Source: a virus
Reading direction: 5' to 3' (one strand)
Length of the DNA: 35,120 bases
Virus record (IMG/VR): IMGVR_UViG_3300048024_000375
Location: 1-35,120 of that record
The translations under genes and the position numbers were made by a program. The notes beneath the pieces were generated by a model. That model did no database searches and had not been told where the DNA came from. It worked only from the letters and a program-made list of their open reading frames with translations. Shown in pieces: positions 3,955 through 34,877 of this stretch; the stretch's first letter is position 1, and each line of letters starts with the position of its first letter.

Positions 3955-4815
3955 ATGGCACAGCCTAAAAAAGTAAATTATCTTAATAATAAAGATATTC
4001 TAAAAGAAATTCACAAAAGTAAAATGACATTCTGCTGGTTAGCAGACGAAAAATACTCTGAATTCGATATTATACTGCAAGATGTTAAAAAAATAAACAG
4101 AAATAGTATAAAAGCCGCAAGAGAAAATAGAGCATCAAAGATGCAATCTGAAGGATATCAGGCCGCAATGGCAGTTCATGACCCTAAGGATTATAAGAAC
4201 AAGCCCAAGCAAAAACAATTTGCTGTAGACCCTAAAAGTATTCCTGTAGAGGATTTAGTGTTTCGTGTTATGACTATGGAACATATTCCTGAAGAGCCAG
4301 GCAGAAAGAAAAATCCTAAAACTGAAGCAGAGTTTTTAGCAAAAGTAAATTTTCCTCCATTTAAGCATTATGCATATGTTAGTGACGAGGTTAAAGAAGT
4401 ATCCAGAAGTCATTGGGAAGGTGGTTTAAGCAATGGTCAATTTAATTGTAAACACGGTAAAATTACTAACAAGTTAGGTCATATGTTTTTAAAACTTGTA
4501 GAAAGATATTCCCACAGAGCAAATTGGAGAGGGTATACTTACATTGATGAAATGAGAGGACAAGCATTAGTACAATTAAGTTACATCGGCTTACAGTTTA
4601 ACGAAATGAAATCAGACAACCCTTTTGCATATTATACAGCCGCAGTTAATAACAGTTTTACACGAATACTTAATTTGGAAAAAAGAAACCAAACTATCAG
4701 AGACGATATACTGATTGAGCAAGGACACTTACCAAGTTATGGCAGACAGATACAGCATGAGAACGAGATGAGAATCATTCGTGAACAAGCGAATCAAACA
4801 GATATAAACACTTAA
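3955..4815 (+). CDS. 55: Late-transcription sigma factor gp55
   Basis: Sigma factor that redirects host RNA polymerase to phage late promoters, with the sliding clamp and co-activator in T4. The hallmark region is residues ~155-255: SHWEGGLSNGQFNCKHGKIT, NKLGHMFLKLVERYS, NWRGYTYIDEMRGQALVQLS, QNPFAYYTAAVNNSFTR (here DNPFAYYTAAVNNSFTR) and LNLEKRNQTIRDDIL. These are strongly conserved in T4-like gp55. At 286 aa it is about 100 residues longer than T4 gp55 (185 aa). The basic N-terminal part (VNYLNNKDILKEIHKSK, then PVEDLVFRVMT and KVNFPPFKH) matches what I remember of marine T4-like forms. ATG follows a strong GAGGAG. gp47 follows after 5 nt. The GATAAATA boxes found across the window are its expected targets. 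Confidence 0.93.
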   Translation: MAQPKKVNYLNNKDILKEIHKSKMTFCWLADEKYSEFDIILQDVKKINRNSIKAARENRASKMQSEGYQAAMAVHDPKDYKNKPKQKQFAVDPKSIPVEDLVFRVMTMEHIPEEPGRKKNPKTEAEFLAKVNFPPFKHYAYVSDEVKEVSRSHWEGGLSNGQFNCKHGKITNKLGHMFLKLVERYSHRANWRGYTYIDEMRGQALVQLSYIGLQFNEMKSDNPFAYYTAAVNNSFTRILNLEKRNQTIRDDILIEQGHLPSYGRQIQHENEMRIIREQANQTDINT

Positions 4816-15242: not shown

Positions 15243-15250
15243 TATAAATA
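15243..15250 (+). promoter_or_regulatory. Late promoter (exact TATAAATA) for gp67-like scaffold through gp23
   Basis: TATAAATATT in the 180-nt gap before the scaffold gene; the predicted start near 15256 gives a leader of about 138 nt ending in AAGGAG. The rest of the gap (15251-15393) is A-rich and holds no ORF I can support. Confidence 0.6.
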
Positions 15251-15393
15251 TTCAGTAAAATCACAGATATAAGCAAAATCACTCAGAATCACAGCCTTTC
15301 CCACAAAAAAACACATGTTTACATAAGTAAATAACAAGCCGTGCTACAAGTATGAGTACCTGTGCATGGTAAATAATTTTTAAGGAGACCACA

Positions 15394-16194
15394 ATGTCAG
15401 AATCAAGAAGTAAATTAGAAGAAATTCTTGAACTTCTCCTTGCTGAGGAAAACGAAAAAGCGGAAGAAATGCTTCATGAGTATGTTGTTGCAAAAGCAAG
15501 AACAGAATATGAAAAAGTTCTAGACGAAGACGTTTCCGAAGAAGAAGCAGTTGAAGAAGCAGAAGAATCCGAAGAAGAGGCAGTTGAAGAATCAGAAGAA
15601 TCTGAAGAAGATGCTGTTGAAGAGTCAGAAGAAGTTGAAGTTGATGAAGTAATTGATCAAAGCAACGATCTAGAAGACGATATCCTAACAGACGAAGAAG
15701 AAATCGAAGCAGATGAAACCGGAATGGAAGAAATGGGCGACGAGGACGAAGATAAGGGTGACGATGATCTAGAAGATAAAGTTGACCATTTAGAGGATGA
15801 GTTAGAAGACCTTAAAGCAGAATTTGAAAAACTATTAGCAGACGACGAAGAAGGCGACGACATGGATATGGATGACGCTGAAAAAGTTGAAGACGAAATG
15901 GCAGATGAGCTTGATCTAGAATCAGTAGAATATGACCTAGATGAAGAAATTGCTGAAGAGTCAGATGAAGTTGTTGAAGAAGCAACTAAATTACAAGATG
16001 CAGTAGCAGATCCTAAAGGTGGTGAGTCAGATAACAGCGAATCACCAATGACTAAAGCACCAGCAAAATCAAAAGTTGAAGGTGCAGGCGAACCTGTTAA
16101 GGCTAAAGACGGCGGCGACGGAAACATGGGCGACAACAAGCCTTCCGACACTGGCGGATCAGACAACCTTAAAGTTGAACCTAAAAAGGTTTAA
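15394..16194 (+). CDS. 67: Acidic prohead core protein, gp67-like
   Basis: 266 residues. The N-terminal ~40 are helical (KLEEILELLLAEENEKAEEM, then VVAKARTEYEKVL), resembling the N-terminus of T4 gp67. The remainder is almost entirely Glu/Asp, with tandem EEAVEESEESE-type repeats at about 50-85 and a long coiled acidic stretch, ending in a more neutral Lys/Gly/Pro tail. gp67 is an internal scaffold protein that shapes the prohead core and is digested by gp21. T4 gp67 is only 80 aa, so this is a greatly expanded form, possibly also covering the gp68 role. Strong AAGGAG before ATG. Position just before gp21 supports the call. Confidence 0.75.
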   Translation: MSESRSKLEEILELLLAEENEKAEEMLHEYVVAKARTEYEKVLDEDVSEEEAVEEAEESEEEAVEESEESEEDAVEESEEVEVDEVIDQSNDLEDDILTDEEEIEADETGMEEMGDEDEDKGDDDLEDKVDHLEDELEDLKAEFEKLLADDEEGDDMDMDDAEKVEDEMADELDLESVEYDLDEEIAEESDEVVEEATKLQDAVADPKGGESDNSESPMTKAPAKSKVEGAGEPVKAKDGGDGNMGDNKPSDTGGSDNLKVEPKKV

Positions 16195-22474: not shown

Positions 22475-22482
22475 GATAAATA
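22475..22482 (+). promoter_or_regulatory. Late promoter placed 5 nt before the ATG (leaderless mRNA predicted)
   Basis: GATAAATA followed by TTATT and then ATG at 22488. In T4 the box spans about -13 to -6, so the predicted +1 is the A of the start codon. There is no ribosome site between box and ATG. Confidence 0.65.
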
Positions 22483-22487
22483 TTATT

Positions 22488-23564
22488 ATGAAAATTATTA
22501 AAGGTCAAACTCCTACGGAAGTTATTCTTCATGAGGACGAATATCCAACCGGACTTGAACCCACAGATATTGTAGAAATATTTCAAACTCCACTAACAGG
22601 TACTTATAATTGGGATTATACAGTACAAGACAATCGTGTTAAAAAACTATACGAATTAGGCAAACAGTTAAACTGGAATGCAGAAGTAGATGTTGACTGG
22701 ACACCAGAGTTTCCAGATATCGATACAGAAGCATTTGAGTTTGAAAACAATCAATGGAGCAAACATCCTGTATATGCAGAATGGGATAAAGAAAAGAAAC
22801 TAGAATTTATCAGAGACTTAAATGCATGGAGCATCAGCCAATTTTTACATGGCGAACAAGGTGCTTTATTAGTAGCAAGTCAGTTGGCCAGTTGTGCTCC
22901 TACATTTAATGCCAAACTATATGCGGCTTCACAGACATTCGATGAAGCAAGACATGTAGAAGCATTTAACAAATACCTGCAAACAAGACTTAAACGAACA
23001 TGGCCTATAGGCACAGCACTAAAAGGATTACTAGACAAAATATTAACTGATCCAAGATGGGATTTAAAGTTTATTGGTATGCAAATTGTTATAGAAGGAC
23101 TAGCACTTGCGGCCTTTCAGGCTAGTAAAGATGCCAGTAACGATCCTGTATACAAAGAAATGGTAGGATATATTATCAGAGATGAAGCAAGGCATGTTAC
23201 CTTTGGTGTAAACTATTTAGAAGAATATGTAAAAACACTCACAGAAGAAGAACGCCAGGACAGAGCACAATTTGCCTTAGAGGCCTGTACTGTAAGCAGA
23301 AACAGATTAAGAGCATATGATGTTTGGGAAAAATATGGTATGGATTTAGAACAAACAGAAGCATATCAAAAAGAATTTATATTTCAAACACAATTTCAAG
23401 ACATATTATTCAGTCGAATAATGCCCAACCTAAAAAGAATAGGACTACTAACGGACGAACTTATACCTGAATATGATAAATTGGGTGTAATGGGTTATGC
23501 AGATGGTGACTCAGATTTCGAAACCAGTTGGGAAGAACTAAGTAAACCACTTAAAACAGTATAA
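22488..23564 (+). CDS. Ferritin-like diiron protein (R2/oxygenase superfamily)
   Basis: 358 residues, helical, with a complete carboxylate diiron ligand set in canonical order: Glu123 (HGEQ), Glu153 and His156 (DEARHV), Glu203 (IEGLA), Glu233 and His236 (DEARHV). This pattern belongs to the ferritin-like superfamily, which includes ribonucleotide reductase R2, AurF-type N-oxygenases and hydroxylases. A metal-dependent oxidase or oxygenase is expected; substrate unknown. The surrounding sequence does not look like classical class Ia R2 (no paired large-subunit gene, no recognisable radical Tyr context), so I do not call it NrdB. It lies alone among fibre genes under its own late promoter, so it is made with virion proteins. 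It could modify a virion or host-surface component, or be an auxiliary metabolic gene. Confidence 0.78.
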   Translation: MKIIKGQTPTEVILHEDEYPTGLEPTDIVEIFQTPLTGTYNWDYTVQDNRVKKLYELGKQLNWNAEVDVDWTPEFPDIDTEAFEFENNQWSKHPVYAEWDKEKKLEFIRDLNAWSISQFLHGEQGALLVASQLASCAPTFNAKLYAASQTFDEARHVEAFNKYLQTRLKRTWPIGTALKGLLDKILTDPRWDLKFIGMQIVIEGLALAAFQASKDASNDPVYKEMVGYIIRDEARHVTFGVNYLEEYVKTLTEEERQDRAQFALEACTVSRNRLRAYDVWEKYGMDLEQTEAYQKEFIFQTQFQDILFSRIMPNLKRIGLLTDELIPEYDKLGVMGYADGDSDFETSWEELSKPLKTV

Positions 23565-23567
23565 AAA

Positions 23568-23575
23568 GATAAATA
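23568..23575 (+). promoter_or_regulatory. Late promoter (GATAAATA) with an unusually long leader
   Basis: GATAAATAT just after the diiron gene stop. The predicted start near 23581 leaves a leader of about 111 nt before the ATG at 23692, far longer than at most other late genes here. Confidence 0.65.
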
Positions 23576-23592
23576 TAAGTAGACGGAGAAGA

Positions 23593-23629
23593 CTGTGTCG
23601 ACACTCATGAATTGGTCATGAGGACACAG
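23593..23629 (+). other. Hairpin in the 5' leader of a fibre gene
   Basis: CTGTGTC (23593-23599) pairs with GACACAG (23623-23629) and, inside it, CTCATGA (23604-23610) pairs with TCATGAG (23616-23622) around ATTGG. Fourteen base pairs are broken only by a one-sided GACA bulge. It begins about 12 nt after the predicted transcription start. No T tract follows, so it is not a terminator. Confidence 0.65.
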
Positions 23630-23691
23630 ACTAGGGTTCGTAAGGCATGGTGTCCTTATCACAACTCTAGAACTGACCTGGATAATAAAGT

Positions 23692-25461
23692 ATGGCAATT
23701 TTTGGAAATTTTAAGGGGACCACTCAGTCTGAGTTTCAGATTGGAAAGACTGATAGTGGCACAAAAATATCTACAGGTACCCAGCCTAGTAGCGATATCT
23801 CCACTGGTGATATATACATAGATAGTTCTAATTCAACTTTACAAGTGTATAACGGTAATTGGGTAAGTGTAGGAAGTACTTTAAAAGACTTGAACGTTGA
23901 TTCTGGCACATTATTTGTAGACAGTAGCAACGACACAGTCTCCGTCGGCTCAACATCTAGTAATGAGAAATTATTTGTAAATGGTAATTTAAGACTAGGA
24001 ACCAACCCAAGTTTAAAATTTGCTGGTGCATATTTAGATGTACAGCATAGTAACGGTTCAGCCACACAATTAAGACTGAGAGATAACAGTTCCGGTTCAG
24101 ACCCTATATTTAAAATTTACGATGCTAATAATACAAATGAAGTATTTAAAGTACAAGGCAGAACAGTAACATTTACGGATCAAGAGTTTACAAATTCAAA
24201 CATAATGAAGTTCAACCAGATGTATACTGGTGCTTCAACTGGTAGTTACTTTACTAACGGTGAATACCAAAAAGTTGTAACAATTATTCCAGATGGAACA
24301 AGTCAAAACTATCAAGTAGTAGGACGTATTACGGCTCAAAATGCTGGTGAAACTCACACAGTTTATTTTAATACAGCATTGAGAAGTGGTGAGACACTTC
24401 CTGATTTAAGTTGGTCTACCAGTTACGAAGAAGAATACAATGGTAGTAGATACATAGATCCTCAACTGTGGACCAAAGAAACAACTACAGCAGGATTTAT
24501 TTTTGCTTTTAAAACATTAAGCACAATTTATGGAACTGTAACAGTTGACATGGAAGTTATTCCAAGAAACAGTTCACAAAAAGATAATGTTACTGTGAAC
24601 GCAGTTCAAAACAGTGAACAAAGTGCAGTTGAGACAGGTTACACTATTAACGATATGGTTAAGGGTGGGTTAAGTAAAGTTTCTAACAACATCATTATTA
24701 ACGGTGAAGTAAGCAGTCATATTTTACCAAGTGCTAATGTTACATACGATTTAGGTTCAGATGCAAAAAGATGGAGAGACTTATATCTAAGTGGTAATAC
24801 TATCAATATTGGTACAACATCCATCAGTGTAACATCAGACAATGAAATAGATTTTTCAGATAGTGCAAACACTAGTGTTAAAAGAAAACTAGTTGTTGAT
24901 GAAATAGAAATAGGCACAGGTAACGACAAAGTTGTTTTAAGAAAAGGTAACGACGGTAAATTAAAAACTGTTAGTAAAAATAGAAGTACGAAAGCAGAAA
25001 CTTCTAACAAAGTTGATCTAGATGATAACGATACAGGTGATTTATCAGAAGGTAGTAATTTATATTATACCGATGCCAGAGCAAATACAGCCATTGATGC
25101 CAAACTGGCTGGAGATTTAACATTTGGAAATGCTACGGTTAGTGGCACAACTTCAAGTGGTGTTGTTGAAGGCGTAGTATTCCAACCAATTACAGATTAT
25201 GGACTTATCACTGCTAACACCACAATTACTATTGACTATGGTGCAGTTAATGAATCAGGAACCATTCCTGCTATTGGAGATTTTGAATACTTAAATGATA
25301 TTTACGGTCCTACAGGAGATAGTTTTACAGTAGCAACAGTACCAAATGCCGCACAACCTGGACAAATGATTTATGTAAGTGATGAAACAGGCGGCCCAGT
25401 CATGGCATTTAGCGATGGCAGTAACTGGCGCAGGATTACAGACAGAACAATAGTAAGTTAA
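23692..25461 (+). CDS. Tail-fibre-like virion protein
   Basis: 589 residues, no signal peptide. N-terminus AIFGNFKGTTQSEFQIGKTD, then beta-rich repeats with SGTLFVDSSNDTVSVG and NGNLRLGTNPSLKF. A more globular region follows around 175-300 (MKFNQMYTGASTGSYF; TIIPDGTSQNYQVVGR). The typical fibre motif DLGSDAKRWRDLYLSGNTI is at about 350-368 and SNLYYTDARANTAID at about 453. The C-terminus PGQMIYVSDETGGPVMAFSD is common at the ends of marine phage fibre proteins. ATG has only a weak upstream GGATAA and follows a structured leader. Likely a fibre or adhesin subunit acting with its neighbours; no enzymatic motif seen. Confidence 0.75.
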   Translation: MAIFGNFKGTTQSEFQIGKTDSGTKISTGTQPSSDISTGDIYIDSSNSTLQVYNGNWVSVGSTLKDLNVDSGTLFVDSSNDTVSVGSTSSNEKLFVNGNLRLGTNPSLKFAGAYLDVQHSNGSATQLRLRDNSSGSDPIFKIYDANNTNEVFKVQGRTVTFTDQEFTNSNIMKFNQMYTGASTGSYFTNGEYQKVVTIIPDGTSQNYQVVGRITAQNAGETHTVYFNTALRSGETLPDLSWSTSYEEEYNGSRYIDPQLWTKETTTAGFIFAFKTLSTIYGTVTVDMEVIPRNSSQKDNVTVNAVQNSEQSAVETGYTINDMVKGGLSKVSNNIIINGEVSSHILPSANVTYDLGSDAKRWRDLYLSGNTINIGTTSISVTSDNEIDFSDSANTSVKRKLVVDEIEIGTGNDKVVLRKGNDGKLKTVSKNRSTKAETSNKVDLDDNDTGDLSEGSNLYYTDARANTAIDAKLAGDLTFGNATVSGTTSSGVVEGVVFQPITDYGLITANTTITIDYGAVNESGTIPAIGDFEYLNDIYGPTGDSFTVATVPNAAQPGQMIYVSDETGGPVMAFSDGSNWRRITDRTIVS

Positions 25462-25477
25462 AATAACAGGAATACAC

Positions 25478-26908
25478 ATGCCAAGAGCAAAAAAGCCTGC
25501 AACAACCACAGATAAAAAAGTGGTAGCAAAAAAGACAGTTAAAAATACATCTCAAGAAGTAGATTTTAAAAAGTTAAAAGCGGAACTTAAAAAAGAATTA
25601 AAAAAAGAGGTGCAAAAACAATTAGAAGAAGCTCTTTTAAACATAGAGATCGATGCACCTGAATCAGAAGTTGATTTAAGCAGTATAAAAAATGAAATAA
25701 ACAATACTTTAGAACAAAGTATTAAAGAATTAAAAAATAAGATTACACAACCTACAGAAGCAAAACTGGAAAGAGCTGAATTAAACTTAACAGGTGAAAA
25801 GAATTTTAGATTAAGTTCTGACCTGGATGGATTTTTAATTGAAGATTCAAACAAAGTACATATAGCAGTCAACAGATCAGGCACTATAGGGTTAGGCATT
25901 AGAGCACCAAAGGCATATGGCCCAGGTAGTGTTCATATAAGGTCAAATTATCCTAGTGAAGCACCTTTACCATCAAGTGGGCTTCACAGTACTAGAGGGC
26001 TTATTGTAGAGGGCGATGGTGATGATGAAAAATCCTTTAGTTTTAGAGCTTTAAGCAGACAAAATAGACAAGGATTTAATATTACAGGCGATGGCAGTTT
26101 AATTTTTGGTGATGTAAAAGATAAAAGAAGATCAAAAGTTTATTTAAATCATACAAACGCAGATGGAGATGTTTTAAATACATATGTAGGTAGTAAACAT
26201 TTTAGTGGTAATTTAATTAACATGCAAACTGGGTCTGCACCCAGAGATAATTTTAATTTTTTTAATGCTAAAGTGCATACCGACAAGAACGATGATAAAG
26301 GTATAGATGTTTTTAAAGTAGATGGTGAAGGCACAGTATATACTGAAACTGGTTACCTTTCTAATCAAGTTGGATATGCAGAACTATTTGAATGGGCAGA
26401 TCTTAACTCTAAAAACGAAAATAGGTATGGATTTACTGTTTCATTAGATGCAACAGGTAAATTACAGATTGCAGATGGAAATGACACGGTAATTGGTGTT
26501 GTAGTTAAACATGCCGCAGTTGTAGGTAATGCAGGTTGGAATGCCTGGAAGAACAAATATAAAGTTGGTGATGACGGCAATCCAGTTGCTACAAAAACTA
26601 AAGTAGTTGAATGGGTAGATGATGTAGGTATTTTACATAGTTATTATGTAAAAAGTTTAGATCCTACATTCACACTTCCAGAAAATGCCATAATATATGA
26701 AACAATGGATGATGGAAATGACATAGAAGTCACTCCATTCTATACACAATATAATACAGAACAAGAATATACACAAAGATTAAAAAGAGGCTGGACAAGA
26801 GTAGCAATGATAGGTTCAGTAGTAATGTATAAAGGACAATATGTCAATGATAAATGGCTCAAGATAGCAGATGTAAATGATGAGTTAGAACATTGGATAT
26901 TGCGATAA
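25478..26908 (+). CDS. Tail spike/fibre protein with Peptidase_G2-type C-terminal domain
   Basis: 476 residues. The first ~35 are Lys/Ala-rich. Residues ~28-110 form a charged coiled coil (KKLKAELKKELKKEVQKQLE). A beta-rich body follows (GFLIEDSNKVHIAVNRSGTI; GPGSVHIRSNYPSE). From about 298 a domain reads GYAELFEWADLNSKNENRYG, then VSLDATGKLQIADGNDTVIG and GNAGWNAWKNKY, matching the Peptidase_G2 intramolecular-chaperone family seen in phage neck appendages. Those domains trimerise and cleave themselves off, so processing is possible here but unproved. It starts 16 nt after the previous gene with CAGGA upstream, so both are probably in one transcript. Confidence 0.72.
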   Translation: MPRAKKPATTTDKKVVAKKTVKNTSQEVDFKKLKAELKKELKKEVQKQLEEALLNIEIDAPESEVDLSSIKNEINNTLEQSIKELKNKITQPTEAKLERAELNLTGEKNFRLSSDLDGFLIEDSNKVHIAVNRSGTIGLGIRAPKAYGPGSVHIRSNYPSEAPLPSSGLHSTRGLIVEGDGDDEKSFSFRALSRQNRQGFNITGDGSLIFGDVKDKRRSKVYLNHTNADGDVLNTYVGSKHFSGNLINMQTGSAPRDNFNFFNAKVHTDKNDDKGIDVFKVDGEGTVYTETGYLSNQVGYAELFEWADLNSKNENRYGFTVSLDATGKLQIADGNDTVIGVVVKHAAVVGNAGWNAWKNKYKVGDDGNPVATKTKVVEWVDDVGILHSYYVKSLDPTFTLPENAIIYETMDDGNDIEVTPFYTQYNTEQEYTQRLKRGWTRVAMIGSVVMYKGQYVNDKWLKIADVNDELEHWILR

Positions 26909-29947: not shown

Positions 29948-29955
29948 GATAAATA
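29948..29955 (+). promoter_or_regulatory. Late promoter (GATAAATA) for the curli-like operon
   Basis: GATAAATAC; the predicted start near 29961 gives a 26-nt leader with AGGA before the ATG at 29987. It is the only promoter I see before the co-directional genes 29987-34023. Confidence 0.75.
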
Positions 29956-32098: not shown

Positions 32099-32888
32099 AA
32101 ACTTAGCGGTTGGTGTCTTCGCATTTATAGGACTTATGTTCAATCCAGTACTTGCTGACGATAACGAAGTTTTACTTGACCAAACAGGTGACAACTTGGT
32201 TTTAACAATTTTACAGGCAGGAACAGGTAACACAGTATCAGGTGATGCTACACAAGGCAGTGACTTGATACTTAACGGTAATAACATAATATTGGACCTT
32301 ATACAGGACGGTGATAACAATGACTTCTTCGGTAGTCTTGTTTTAGACGGATCAGGTTCAACTGTGTTAGATTTTTACAACTTGGGAGATGGCAACATCT
32401 TTGATTTTGACGTAGGTGATAATAGTGCCGATTATGCTGATATGCTTTCAAGCATTCAGGGTGACGGTAACTTATTTGACATAGGAATAGGTGAGAACGC
32501 ACAAGCAGAAAACTTAAACTTTGACTTAGTAATACTAGGTGACAGAAATGATTTTGACACTAGTTTTACAAACAGCAAAGTTTGGGCGGCGGCTGGAACA
32601 GGTGACACTTGTGGCACAAACTGTACAGGTTCAAGTGCAATGGTAGGCATCATAATAGATGCAGACGATGTTGTATGGAACTTTGACATTACAGGTGATG
32701 ACAATGCCTTTGCTACAAAGCAAAGTGGAAACAGTGGTCATATGCTTACAACAGACATAACAGGTAGTGATGGAGATTTCCAGTTCACTCAGGATATGAC
32801 TGCAACTTGTACGAATGCTTGTAACGGCGTAATTAATGTCGAAATAGACAGCGAAAATGCTTCAGTTAGTATTAAACAAACCGACTAA
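32085..32888 (+). CDS. Secreted curlin-repeat protein 1 (CsgA/CsgB-like)
   Basis: 267 residues with signal peptide 1-24 (GLMFNPVLA then DD). The mature part is a run of curlin-like repeats, clearest at 26-51 (LLDQTGDNLVLTILQAGTGN) and 61-83 (LILNGNNIILDLIQDGDNN), then weaker ones near 98-113, 123-135, 148-158 and 200-217 (FDITGDDNAFATKQSGNSG). Q-x-G-x-x-N spacing is the hallmark of CsgA/CsgB amyloid subunits. It is strongly acidic. Two CX3C pairs (176/180 and 242/246) are unlike E. coli curlins. GGAGA precedes the ATG, which lies 14 nt inside the csgG-like gene. Likely cargo of the CsgG channel; whether it is the nucleator or main subunit is open. Confidence 0.82.
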   Translation: MKIIKNLAVGVFAFIGLMFNPVLADDNEVLLDQTGDNLVLTILQAGTGNTVSGDATQGSDLILNGNNIILDLIQDGDNNDFFGSLVLDGSGSTVLDFYNLGDGNIFDFDVGDNSADYADMLSSIQGDGNLFDIGIGENAQAENLNFDLVILGDRNDFDTSFTNSKVWAAAGTGDTCGTNCTGSSAMVGIIIDADDVVWNFDITGDDNAFATKQSGNSGHMLTTDITGSDGDFQFTQDMTATCTNACNGVINVEIDSENASVSIKQTD

Positions 32889-34023
32889 ATTCGTAGTCGC
32901 AGTTTTACTAATTGCAATAGGAAACTCATACGCCGCCGAGCCAATTGGCGGCGTAATTGAGCAAAGTGGAAAGGCTGGAAGTATTGTAAGGCTTTCAGGA
33001 GAAGAATTAACAGCAACCTTACAAACAGACATAGTTAGTTTTGACGAAGTTGAAACAGAAAATGGCAGACTTAAAATACAGTTTGTGGACGAAACGCAAG
33101 TCAGTTTAACAGAACATACATATATGGAAATAGATGAATATGTGTATGACCCAGATCCCAGTAAAAGTAAAATGGCACTAAATTTTGTACAAGGTACAGC
33201 CAGATTTGCAACTGGTGGGTTAGGCCTTGTTCCAAAAGAGAACATACAAATACAAACACCTACGGCTGTAATAGGTATTAGAGGTACAGATTTTACTACC
33301 ACAGTTGACGAATTAGGTAGAAGTTTAGTTATATTATTACCAGATGCAAACTGTGATGATAAAGTTAAACTGGAAGAAGGTTGTAGGCCTAGTGGAAGTA
33401 TAACAGTTACTAATGATGGCGGAACAGTAACATTAGAAGAAGCCTTTCAGGCTGTAATGGTAAGTACGTTTGAACAATCACCAACCCAACCTGTAACATT
33501 AGTAGACTTGGATTTAAACCAAATAGACAATATGTTTATTGTTAGTAAGCCTGATGAAATTGTTCAGGCAGAAGAAGAACAAGCAGACCAACTTAAAGGT
33601 GATGGAGGCTTGTTAGACTTTAACGGATTAGACATAGACCTTTTAGAAATTGAAGGTTTAGACGAACAAGCAGAACGACAATTAGAATTTACAGAATTAG
33701 ATATAAATTTCTTAGATGTTGACTTCTTAAGGGATTTATTAGAGATTATGGAAGAAGCAGATGCTCTAGGAGAAGAAGAGGAAAGCACAGGCAGTGATAG
33801 ATTAGTAGACAGAGGATTTGGTGTACAACCTGATAACCAGTTTAATATTATACCCGATGTTGATGGTAAAGTATTTTTCTTAAGAGTAGGTACTAATTAC
33901 ACTAGTCTAAAAATTAAAAAAGGACAAGCAGGATACATAGAAGTAAGAGATAAAGATTTAGGCGATACAGTAATGTGCCTTAATAATTGTGAAGGAATTA
34001 GGATAACAATAACACAAGAGTAA
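32857..34023 (+). CDS. Secreted FecR-domain protein
   Basis: 388 residues. Signal peptide 1-26 (VVAVLLIAIGNSYA then AEP). A FecR-type domain spans about 55-150, with NGRLKIQFVDETQVSLTEHT and IQTPTAVIGIRGTDF. From ~235 comes an Asp/Leu/Glu-rich repeat region (LLDFNGLDIDLLEIEGLDEQ; ELDINFLDVDFLRDLLEIME), then a small C-terminal beta domain with CLNNC. Classical FecR is an inner-membrane anti-sigma regulator; here there is no cytoplasmic or membrane part, so it is a periplasmic or surface protein and regulation is unlikely. It starts 32 nt inside the curlin-repeat gene without a clear ribosome site, implying coupling. Possible structural partner or surface anchor of the fibre. Confidence 0.75.
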   Translation: MLQLVLNKPTKFVVAVLLIAIGNSYAAEPIGGVIEQSGKAGSIVRLSGEELTATLQTDIVSFDEVETENGRLKIQFVDETQVSLTEHTYMEIDEYVYDPDPSKSKMALNFVQGTARFATGGLGLVPKENIQIQTPTAVIGIRGTDFTTTVDELGRSLVILLPDANCDDKVKLEEGCRPSGSITVTNDGGTVTLEEAFQAVMVSTFEQSPTQPVTLVDLDLNQIDNMFIVSKPDEIVQAEEEQADQLKGDGGLLDFNGLDIDLLEIEGLDEQAERQLEFTELDINFLDVDFLRDLLEIMEEADALGEEEESTGSDRLVDRGFGVQPDNQFNIIPDVDGKVFFLRVGTNYTSLKIKKGQAGYIEVRDKDLGDTVMCLNNCEGIRITITQE

Positions 34024-34029
34024 TAAATA
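34022..34029 (+). promoter_or_regulatory. Late promoter variant (AATAAATA) 5 nt before the ATG (leaderless mRNA predicted)
   Basis: AATAAATA, overlapping the stop of the FecR gene, then CTATT and ATG at 34035, the same 5-nt spacing as at 22475 and 34883. First base is A where most boxes here have G. Confidence 0.5.
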
Positions 34030-34034
34030 CTATT

Positions 34035-34877
34035 ATGAACATAGACGAAAGATTAAACGAAATGGAACCTAAAGATACGCCACTATTGGTATTAGGTTAT
34101 ATCTTATTGGGTATGTTTTTATTAATACCTGCTACAGCAAATGCACAAGACAATGAAGTTTTACTTGATCAAACAGGTGACAATTTAGATTTACAAATTT
34201 TACAAGCAGGATATGATAACACAATAAATTTTAGTATTGGTGGTACTAATAATGTGGTTGACTTATTACAACAAGGCAATGGTGGATATATTGGGTACAC
34301 ATCTGCTTGGGGTAGTGGTCTTGCTTGGGGCGGAGATTTAGATGGTGATTACAATAATCTTAATATTGTACAAACGTGTAATCAAGGATCATCCTGTGGG
34401 GGTGATAGATTTGAATTTCATATACAGGGTGATAGCAATGATGTAGACTTCTATCAAGGATATCACGTAACAAGTTCAGGGACGGTGTTAGAAATTGATG
34501 ATTACGAGTATGGCGGCCATTTTACACGATTAGATATTCACGGTGATAACAATAAGTTTTTAGGAAGTCAACGTTCAAACAACTCAGGACACGAACATTC
34601 AAACATTACTAACATCTACGGTAATTACAATGATGTGTACACAAGACAAGAAAGCAACCAAGACAAAACACTTAATTTAACAATCAATAATAGTAACAAT
34701 GATGTTGATATGATACAAAAGGGAAGTGCGACACATACTGCCACAGTCACACTAAGTGGAACGTATTCCACTACTTTATATATGCTTCAACAAGGAGGCA
34801 CAGCACAATCATATACACTCAGCCAAACCTGTGCAACAATAGGTGGTTGTTCAGTCTCAGTCACTCAAGGTAATTAA
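34035..34877 (+). CDS. Secreted curlin-repeat protein 2 (CsgA/CsgB-like)
   Basis: 280 residues. A hydrophilic 16-residue N-terminus precedes the signal helix (PLLVLGYILLGMFLLIPATA), with likely cleavage after ANA at 37. The mature start DNEVLLDQTGDNL is nearly identical to curlin-repeat protein 1. Repeats at 44-60 and 74-86 (NVVDLLQQGNGGYIG) are clear; weaker N/Q/G repeats continue to the C-terminus (DVDMIQKGSA; LYMLQQGGTA). Two CX5C pairs (115/121 and 266/272) are present. It is less acidic than its paralogue. Predicted leaderless from its own late promoter, so it may be made at a different level from protein 1. Major subunit or nucleator cannot be told apart. Confidence 0.8.
   Translation: MNIDERLNEMEPKDTPLLVLGYILLGMFLLIPATANAQDNEVLLDQTGDNLDLQILQAGYDNTINFSIGGTNNVVDLLQQGNGGYIGYTSAWGSGLAWGGDLDGDYNNLNIVQTCNQGSSCGGDRFEFHIQGDSNDVDFYQGYHVTSSGTVLEIDDYEYGGHFTRLDIHGDNNKFLGSQRSNNSGHEHSNITNIYGNYNDVYTRQESNQDKTLNLTINNSNNDVDMIQKGSATHTATVTLSGTYSTTLYMLQQGGTAQSYTLSQTCATIGGCSVSVTQGN

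Follow-up and report, generated by a model that had tools for sequence, protein, structure and literature searches.

A conserved two-hairpin RNA element in the late 5′ leader of a fibre gene from an uncultured T4-like phage

The window, that is, the whole stretch of 35,120 nucleotides analysed here (positions 1 to 35,120 of IMG/VR record IMGVR_UViG_3300048024_000375), comes from an uncultured, probably marine, T4-like phage. Its capsid protein shares 69.7% identity with the capsid protein of Pseudomonas phage PA5oct and relatives, and a homologue of the late sigma factor is encoded at 3955-4815 (PHROG 12791, E 2.1e-95). The gene treated below is called a fibre gene after an earlier, sequence-only reading of this DNA and after its neighbours, and not after a curated family. 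The gene that follows it probably lies on the same transcript. Between fibre genes, at 22488-23564, there is an AurF-like diiron oxygenase-type gene (PF11583, 37.2 bits), relatives of which occur in 132 stretches of viral contigs, many of them without this fibre among the best 80 of the 132. The window also carries, behind a late box at 29948, a curli-like set of genes that is unusual for a phage (29987-34877); it comprises CsgF (PF10614, 46.4 bits), CsgG (PF03783, 158.2 bits), an FecR-domain protein (44.5 bits), a weak curlin-repeat protein below the cut-off, and another repeat protein like it that has no match.

The sequence-only reading had put the late transcript start about 111 nt before the fibre ATG, and this agrees with the promoter: with T4-type spacing, the GATAAATA box at 23568-23575 predicts a +1 at 23581 and, with the ATG at 23692, a leader of 111 nt. 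Late promoters of the form NATAAATA have been described in T4-like marine phages (PMC2984593). That other late leaders mostly measure 0-60 nt, as had also been claimed, is true of the GATAAATA and AATAAATA boxes on the + strand, whose leaders, counted from the same +1, are 0, 0, 19, 21, 26, 35, 47, and 58 nt long, but not of two TATAAATA boxes, which would imply leaders of 69 nt (gene 3955) and 138 nt (gene 15394). The fibre leader is thus longer than any other that follows a GATAAATA box, although a longer late leader may exist elsewhere in the window. The 138-nt leader that would follow the TATAAATA box (15243-15394) has a predicted fold of -20.1 kcal/mol. At the other extreme, an ATG stands exactly 13 nt after the start of a NATAAATA box, and thus at the predicted +1, at 22475-22488 and 34022-34035 of the window, at 3158 of contig L057, and on the minus strands of L042 and L005, which suggests that leaderless late mRNAs exist in this phage group. 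Ordinary late leaders in T4-like contigs (L216, L223, L226, L245, L283, and others) have the form GATAAATA-N5-AACGGA..AGAC-ATG, which agrees with the fibre leader over its first 12 nt, and the 5′ foot of the element may be derived from such a plain late leader. Another fibre gene, seen around 5070-5220 in L054 and L056 (MAFAIQRRRGTATEH in L056), has a leader of about 145 nt with possible hairpins common to both.

A bulged hairpin of 14 bp (23593-23629), proposed earlier as the structure of this leader, is found exactly in the minimum-energy fold of 23581-23720 (7 bp, 4-nt bulge, 7 bp). The fibre leader is indeed long and structured; this hairpin, however, forms just one arm (P1) of an element with two hairpins, which spans the stretch from the predicted +1 to the ribosome-binding site (Table 1). 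In the predicted leader RNA, P1 and P2 stand in tandem with one A between them, and the strands that flank them are conserved (GA / A / mostly AACURA). The ribosome-binding site lies 3′ of both hairpins in the consensus and is 0.80 unpaired in the window fold. A covariance model, R1, derived from a structure-free MAFFT alignment of 19 short-form leaders, matches the window at 23569-23688 with 40.1 bits (E 1.6e-7); in a scan of the full window with filters off, the values are 22.9 bits and E 0.0031.

Table 1. Features of the fibre leader and adjoining genes (all on the + strand of the window)
Feature	Position	Strand	Basis or remark
T4-type late promoter box GATAAATA	23568..23575	+	sequence
Whole structured 5′ leader, predicted +1 to base before ATG	23581..23691	+	fold; R1 match
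P0 5′ strand CGG (tentative)	23584..23586	+	pairing with 23677-23680 needs one bulged U or is limited to 2 bp
Junction strand J1, ends in invariant GA	23587..23592	+	GA before P1 in 31/31 leaders
Hairpin P1	23593..23629	+	conserved arm 23593-23599/23623-23629; upper arm 23604-23610/23616-23622 in 8/31 leaders only
Junction J2, invariant single A, P1/P2 boundary	23630..23630	+	31/31 leaders
Hairpin P2, arms 23631-23638/23663-23670	23631..23670	+	alignments
P2 loop insert, inner hairpin 23641-23645/23654-23658	23639..23662	+	near-constant sequence, 13/31 leaders
Junction strand J3, AACTGA (consensus AACURA)	23671..23676	+	AACTRA in 27/31 leaders
P0 3′ strand CCTG (tentative)	23677..23680	+	adjoins Shine-Dalgarno-like GGA 23680-23682
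Fibre gene behind the leader, 589 aa, N-terminus MAIFGNFKGT	23692..25461	+	phrog_36222 (unknown function), 1.6e-8
Next gene, Peptidase_G2 domain, 16 nt downstream of fibre gene	25478..26908	+	domain match

A search of IMG/VR with the fibre protein gave 46 related loci, in most of which the layout is late box, ACGG, GA, P1, A, P2, AACURA, CCGG, and ATG, with the GATAAATA box at a fixed distance upstream of the element, 13 nt before the leader. R1 finds the element in 41 of the 46 loci (39/42 in the first set and 2/4 in the rest, L043 and L044). The loci without it are L004-L007, whose N-terminus is diverged (28% identity) and whose leader is of another kind, and L031, which is matched over residues 161-373 only and misses the fibre N-terminus. 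R1 was run on 95 loci out of L002-L127 (126 in all). In 47 of these it gave a single match with E 2.3e-5 or better; 39 are fibre loci, and the other 8 belong to the upstream gene and come from the same contigs. Another 7 matches had E 0.25 or worse; the remaining loci (L006, L007, L043, L044, and L101-L127) were searched separately. In the sequence searched, which includes a contig of 250,519 bases, strong matches lie only upstream of this fibre gene, one per record, whichever gene comes before it. Weak matches were seen within coding sequence, one in a single contig out of six further ones (21.6 bits, E 0.02) and one at 32811-32892 of the window (18.7 bits). R1 matched none of five whole records of cultured relatives (HTVC008M, Melnitz EXVC044M, P-HM1, PA5oct, and Phosso). 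The pattern CTGAACTRACCGGRGA occurs in 41 stretches, 10 of which are the fibre leader and 31 lack the fold (two of the latter resemble, by eye, the antisense of a tRNA gene), and GATAAATA..ACGG..AGAC occurs in at least 120, where, among the matches listed, R1 was positive in 7/80 and 3/39, all on contigs already known for the fibre. The 4227 families of Rfam gave no match at gathering score in the window and nine relatives, and none with E up to 5 for 23480-23800 of the window and 3880-4030 of L028; ARAGORN found no tRNA or tmRNA in the window.

The fibre itself is conserved over its N-terminal ~160 residues and less so over the remainder. Fifteen phage records match it at residues 319-476 only, and its N-terminus was not found in the cultured phage records or bacterial genomes searched, 0/5 bacterial candidates being confirmed. 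The upstream neighbour is the AurF-like gene in 10/31 cases; in at least 17/31 the leader is preceded by the end of a large fibre-like gene. The AurF-like gene also stands on many marine contigs that have neither this fibre nor the leader. The leader therefore goes with the fibre, from which it is not parted when the upstream neighbour changes. P1 was also considered as a terminator of the upstream gene and rejected, as no T run follows it and a change of upstream gene leaves the element in place. A small peptide encoded in the leader was likewise rejected; a frame of 67-69 aa overlaps the leader, but loop indels of 1-2 nt in close relatives break the shared frame.

Pairing was assessed in three structure-blind alignments, A1 (19 short-form leaders), A2 (13 long-form leaders), and A6 (31 leaders, 29 distinct rows from +1), the rows of which are related sequences, so that their cells are not independent events. 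Over all 18 pairs of A1, 93.2% of cells are paired, against 25-40% when the partner is slid by 1-3 columns. P1 is paired in 100% (7 pairs, 6 with changes on both sides), P2 in 90.2% (8 pairs, 5 with changes on both sides), and P0 in 84.2% (3 pairs, none with changes on both sides). A6 gives a similar picture, with 94.0% paired over the whole structure against 19-41% for slid versions; here the outer five pairs of P1 are 100% paired, four of them changed on both sides, the three pairs of P2 are 95.4% paired, two of them changed on both sides, and P0 is 82.8% paired with no in-register pair changed on both sides. In A2, double changes occur at three pairs of P2 and one of P1. RNAalifold predicts P1 alone from A1, and P1, P2, and the inner hairpin from A2; P0 appears in neither. 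In paired columns, G.T outnumbers A.C by 8:3 in A1 and 26:0 in A2, as counted in the 25 of 32 leaders that could be parsed automatically; the others were read by hand (L004, of the second family described below, and L025, L026, L029, L034, L040, and L045, with bulges or junction changes), as was P2 of L010. Tolerance of G.T above A.C would be expected from selection on the + strand RNA, and not on a DNA cruciform. Lack of conservation in relatives, which would have refuted the sequence-only reading, is not what is seen: the lower 7 bp of its hairpin are kept with compensatory changes, whereas the upper 7 bp, like the bulge, are confined to 8 of 31 leaders. The aligned leaders show that the stems are kept by compensatory change, the shape being conserved and not the letters, and on such comparative grounds the element is real and conserved; in the searches given above it is absent from Rfam.

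Thermodynamic stability says less. The predicted fold of the window's own element is only mildly unusual and would be a weak finding if taken alone (z -2.07 with 8/200 shuffles equally stable for the 111-nt leader; z -1.27 with 22/200 for 140 nt); it is by the compensatory changes in relatives that the element rises above chance. Over 32 fibre leaders, the mean z is -2.60 and 24/32 fall below -2, against a mean of -0.41 and 6/54 in 54 other late leaders, which are shorter (15-79 nt). Across the same 32 leaders, the predicted openness of the ribosome site ranges from 0.27 to 0.92, and the first four bases are unpaired with a mean probability of between 0.03 and 0.89. No second conformation that hides and then frees the ribosome site was found for the element.

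The P1-A-P2 element, together with a weak P0 of 2-3 bp, probably forms a three-way junction that reaches from the predicted mRNA 5′ end to the ribosome-binding site. The junction is graded as probable, while P1-A-P2 is taken as shown, because P0 is weak both in relatives and in the window: its pair probability ranges from 0.00 to 0.81 over 32 leaders and is 0.00 in the window. In most leaders P0 is CGG/CCG; L020 and L022 form 2 bp at most, the window type needs a bulge, and L034 and L040 have, as read by hand, a longer P0 with other letters, CGUAC/GUGCG, out of alignment register. Moreover, the 5′ strand ACGG resembles the AACGGA of ordinary late leaders and may therefore be kept for another reason. 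If P0 does not form in the window, 12 unpaired nucleotides precede the first helix, P1, which begins 12 nt from the predicted +1; if it forms, few or no unpaired bases lie ahead of the first helix.

P1 has, as read by hand, 13 different 5′ arms among the 31 leaders, so its letters are free where pairing is kept, and its upper extension, present in the window, is a variable addition. Departures from the J3 consensus are limited to L034, L040, L042, and L045. The 24-nt insert of P2 is near-constant while the surrounding P2 varies, and it is distributed patchily on the tree of fibre N-termini, being present in L020 and absent from its sister L022 (support 0.997). The exact 17-mer of the insert core occurs in 20 stretches, 17 of them the fibre leader; the idea of a mobile element was rejected, since the 3 unrelated stretches are within chance expectation. 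For an antisense target, 12 records were searched with the 18-nt complement of the insert at up to 3 mismatches. In the 10 insert-carrying records, the leader was the sole site; the L022 record has one site with 3 mismatches, and a single exact match in the L333 record lies in unrelated sequence. All these records are fragments, so a target may lie elsewhere.

The diverged fibre (MAIIMNAKGTS..., L004-L007 and L351-L371) has a leader of its own with a different build, in which a hairpin starting at the predicted +1 is followed by GA, a hairpin, A, a hairpin, and A. In eight distinct rows of this second family, all cells are paired, against 9-36% for slid versions, and P1 of this family accounts for all four double changes; the first and last hairpins are almost constant and are therefore uninformative on pairing. 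R2, the model of this family, finds no match in 11 sources of the first family, and R1 gives nothing above 16.7 bits on 10 loci from the family-2 search. As neither model crosses over, the families share a layout and not a demonstrable ancestry, and this common layout may reflect either descent or convergence. In a third, more distant group (L373-L377), the leader is short and lacks the structure.

T4-type phages are known to use leader structure for control, as in the operators of genes 32 and 43 (PMC3014915) and in hairpins at ribosome sites (PMC2988022). The leader of T4 gene 32 contains a pseudoknot that acts as an autogenous translational operator (PMC3014915), and the present element likewise is folded and lies close to the 5′ terminus of a T4-type mRNA, ahead of the ribosome site. 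The gene 32 operator, however, as described in that source, consists of a pseudoknot and an A+U-rich stretch and serves a gene for a single-stranded-DNA-binding protein, whereas the gene here is fibre-like and no pseudoknot was found by eye in its leader. In T4 e, soc, and I-TevI, hairpins hide the ribosome site in early read-through RNA, and the late start trims the hairpin away (PMC2988022). The fibre gene resembles these late genes in having a late promoter close to the leader structure, but its ribosome site is outside the P1 and P2 stems, and the predicted late start does not remove the hairpin; because the box at 23568 is upstream of all of it, the late RNA would contain the whole element. 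The seg43(25) gene of Aeromonas phage 25 has a predicted stable hairpin beside the ribosome site, the role of which is left unexplained in its description (PMC2988022). Here too a stable structure lies directly upstream of the ribosome site in a T4-related phage and does not hide it, whereas seg43(25) is a homing endonuclease gene with a single hairpin, and the fibre gene has two with a conserved junction. The cis-regulatory RNAs wcaG, manA, and glnA of Rfam have been reported in T4-like marine phages (PMC9964418); they share with the fibre leader the setting of a structured 5′ leader in such a phage and differ in the gene served and in being Rfam families. As these sources present them, none of the T4 precedents (gene 32 and 43 operators, ribosome-site hairpins, and seg43(25)) has this layout or gene. 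No description of such a fibre-leader element was found in the open-licence full-text literature searched, although one may be published elsewhere.

The mechanism we hold to be the most likely, while giving it slightly less than an even chance, is a cis-acting leader RNA that controls fibre dosage after transcription through a recognised junction. Late RNA from 23581 would carry the whole element, from the mRNA 5′ end to the ribosome-binding site. The junction of the folded RNA would be recognised by a phage protein, perhaps the fibre or a fibre-assembly protein, or by the ribosome itself, and binding or folding at this junction would set the translation or the lifetime of the fibre operon mRNA. 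Protection of the 5′ end might arise as a side effect of the same fold. The argument turns on the invariant junction letters between freely changing stems, which suggest that something recognises the folded junction. These letters fit specific recognition better than passive protection, and the placement near the 5′ terminus fits protection. A passive stabiliser, whose fold tucks the first mRNA nucleotides away and slows 5′-end-dependent decay with no specific partner, is indeed the alternative to be taken most seriously, unlikely as we consider it. In 5′-terminal stabilisers of the ompA type, which lengthen mRNA half-life, the first helix is preceded by few or no unpaired bases. The element begins only a few nucleotides from the predicted +1, and the family-2 leader begins with a hairpin exactly there, but a passive block has no need of the invariant GA, A, and AACURA; in the window, moreover, P1 is 12 nt away from +1 with no P0 predicted, and the first four bases vary widely in openness among the leaders, as given above. 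The mRNA of T4 gene 32, which has a structured leader, has been called the most stable T4 mRNA (PMC3014915), which does not show the leader to be the cause.

An element acting directly on translation initiation, the compact fold of which would remove the 5′ tail and present the ribosome site at its 3′ foot, appears improbable. The 3′ strand of P0 does run into a Shine-Dalgarno-like GGGGA or GGAGA in most relatives, and the consensus leaves the ribosome site outside P1 and P2; against this, the openness of that site varies among the leaders over the range stated, and other late genes here manage without the element, some of them apparently without any leader. Conserved junction letters between variable stems would also suit a ligand-sensing, riboswitch-like element, the known Rfam classes being unmatched, but neither a terminator nor an alternative pairing is seen as an expression platform, and the element stands only before one structural gene, which makes this reading very improbable. 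Least credible of all is that the element is not RNA at all but a DNA site, either a hot spot of recombination for fibre exchange or the site of a DNA-binding protein, or else a chance hairpin. Fibres are exchanged modules, and the patchiness of the P2 insert would agree with exchange, but the variety of P1 arms is ill-suited to homology or to a sequence-specific site, and the tolerance of G.T rather than A.C and the compensatory changes also speak against this reading. In a bolder form, recognition of the junction for dosage control would define a new family of RNAs. Its members would be three-way-junction operators to which a phage protein binds, perhaps the fibre itself or a partner in its assembly, so that the amount of the host-recognition fibre is both measured and limited. 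A phage adhesin would then be under autogenous control at the RNA level, with a second, independently built version on the diverged fibre; this we regard as rather doubtful.

The conserved junction is a small, defined target (about 65-112 nt) for a search for its partner, and R1 can find further members. Phage fibres decide host recognition, and their dosage is usually ascribed to promoters and gene order. If control through the recognised junction is true, the amount of fibre would also be set at the RNA level, by a leader that travels with the fibre through changing neighbourhoods.
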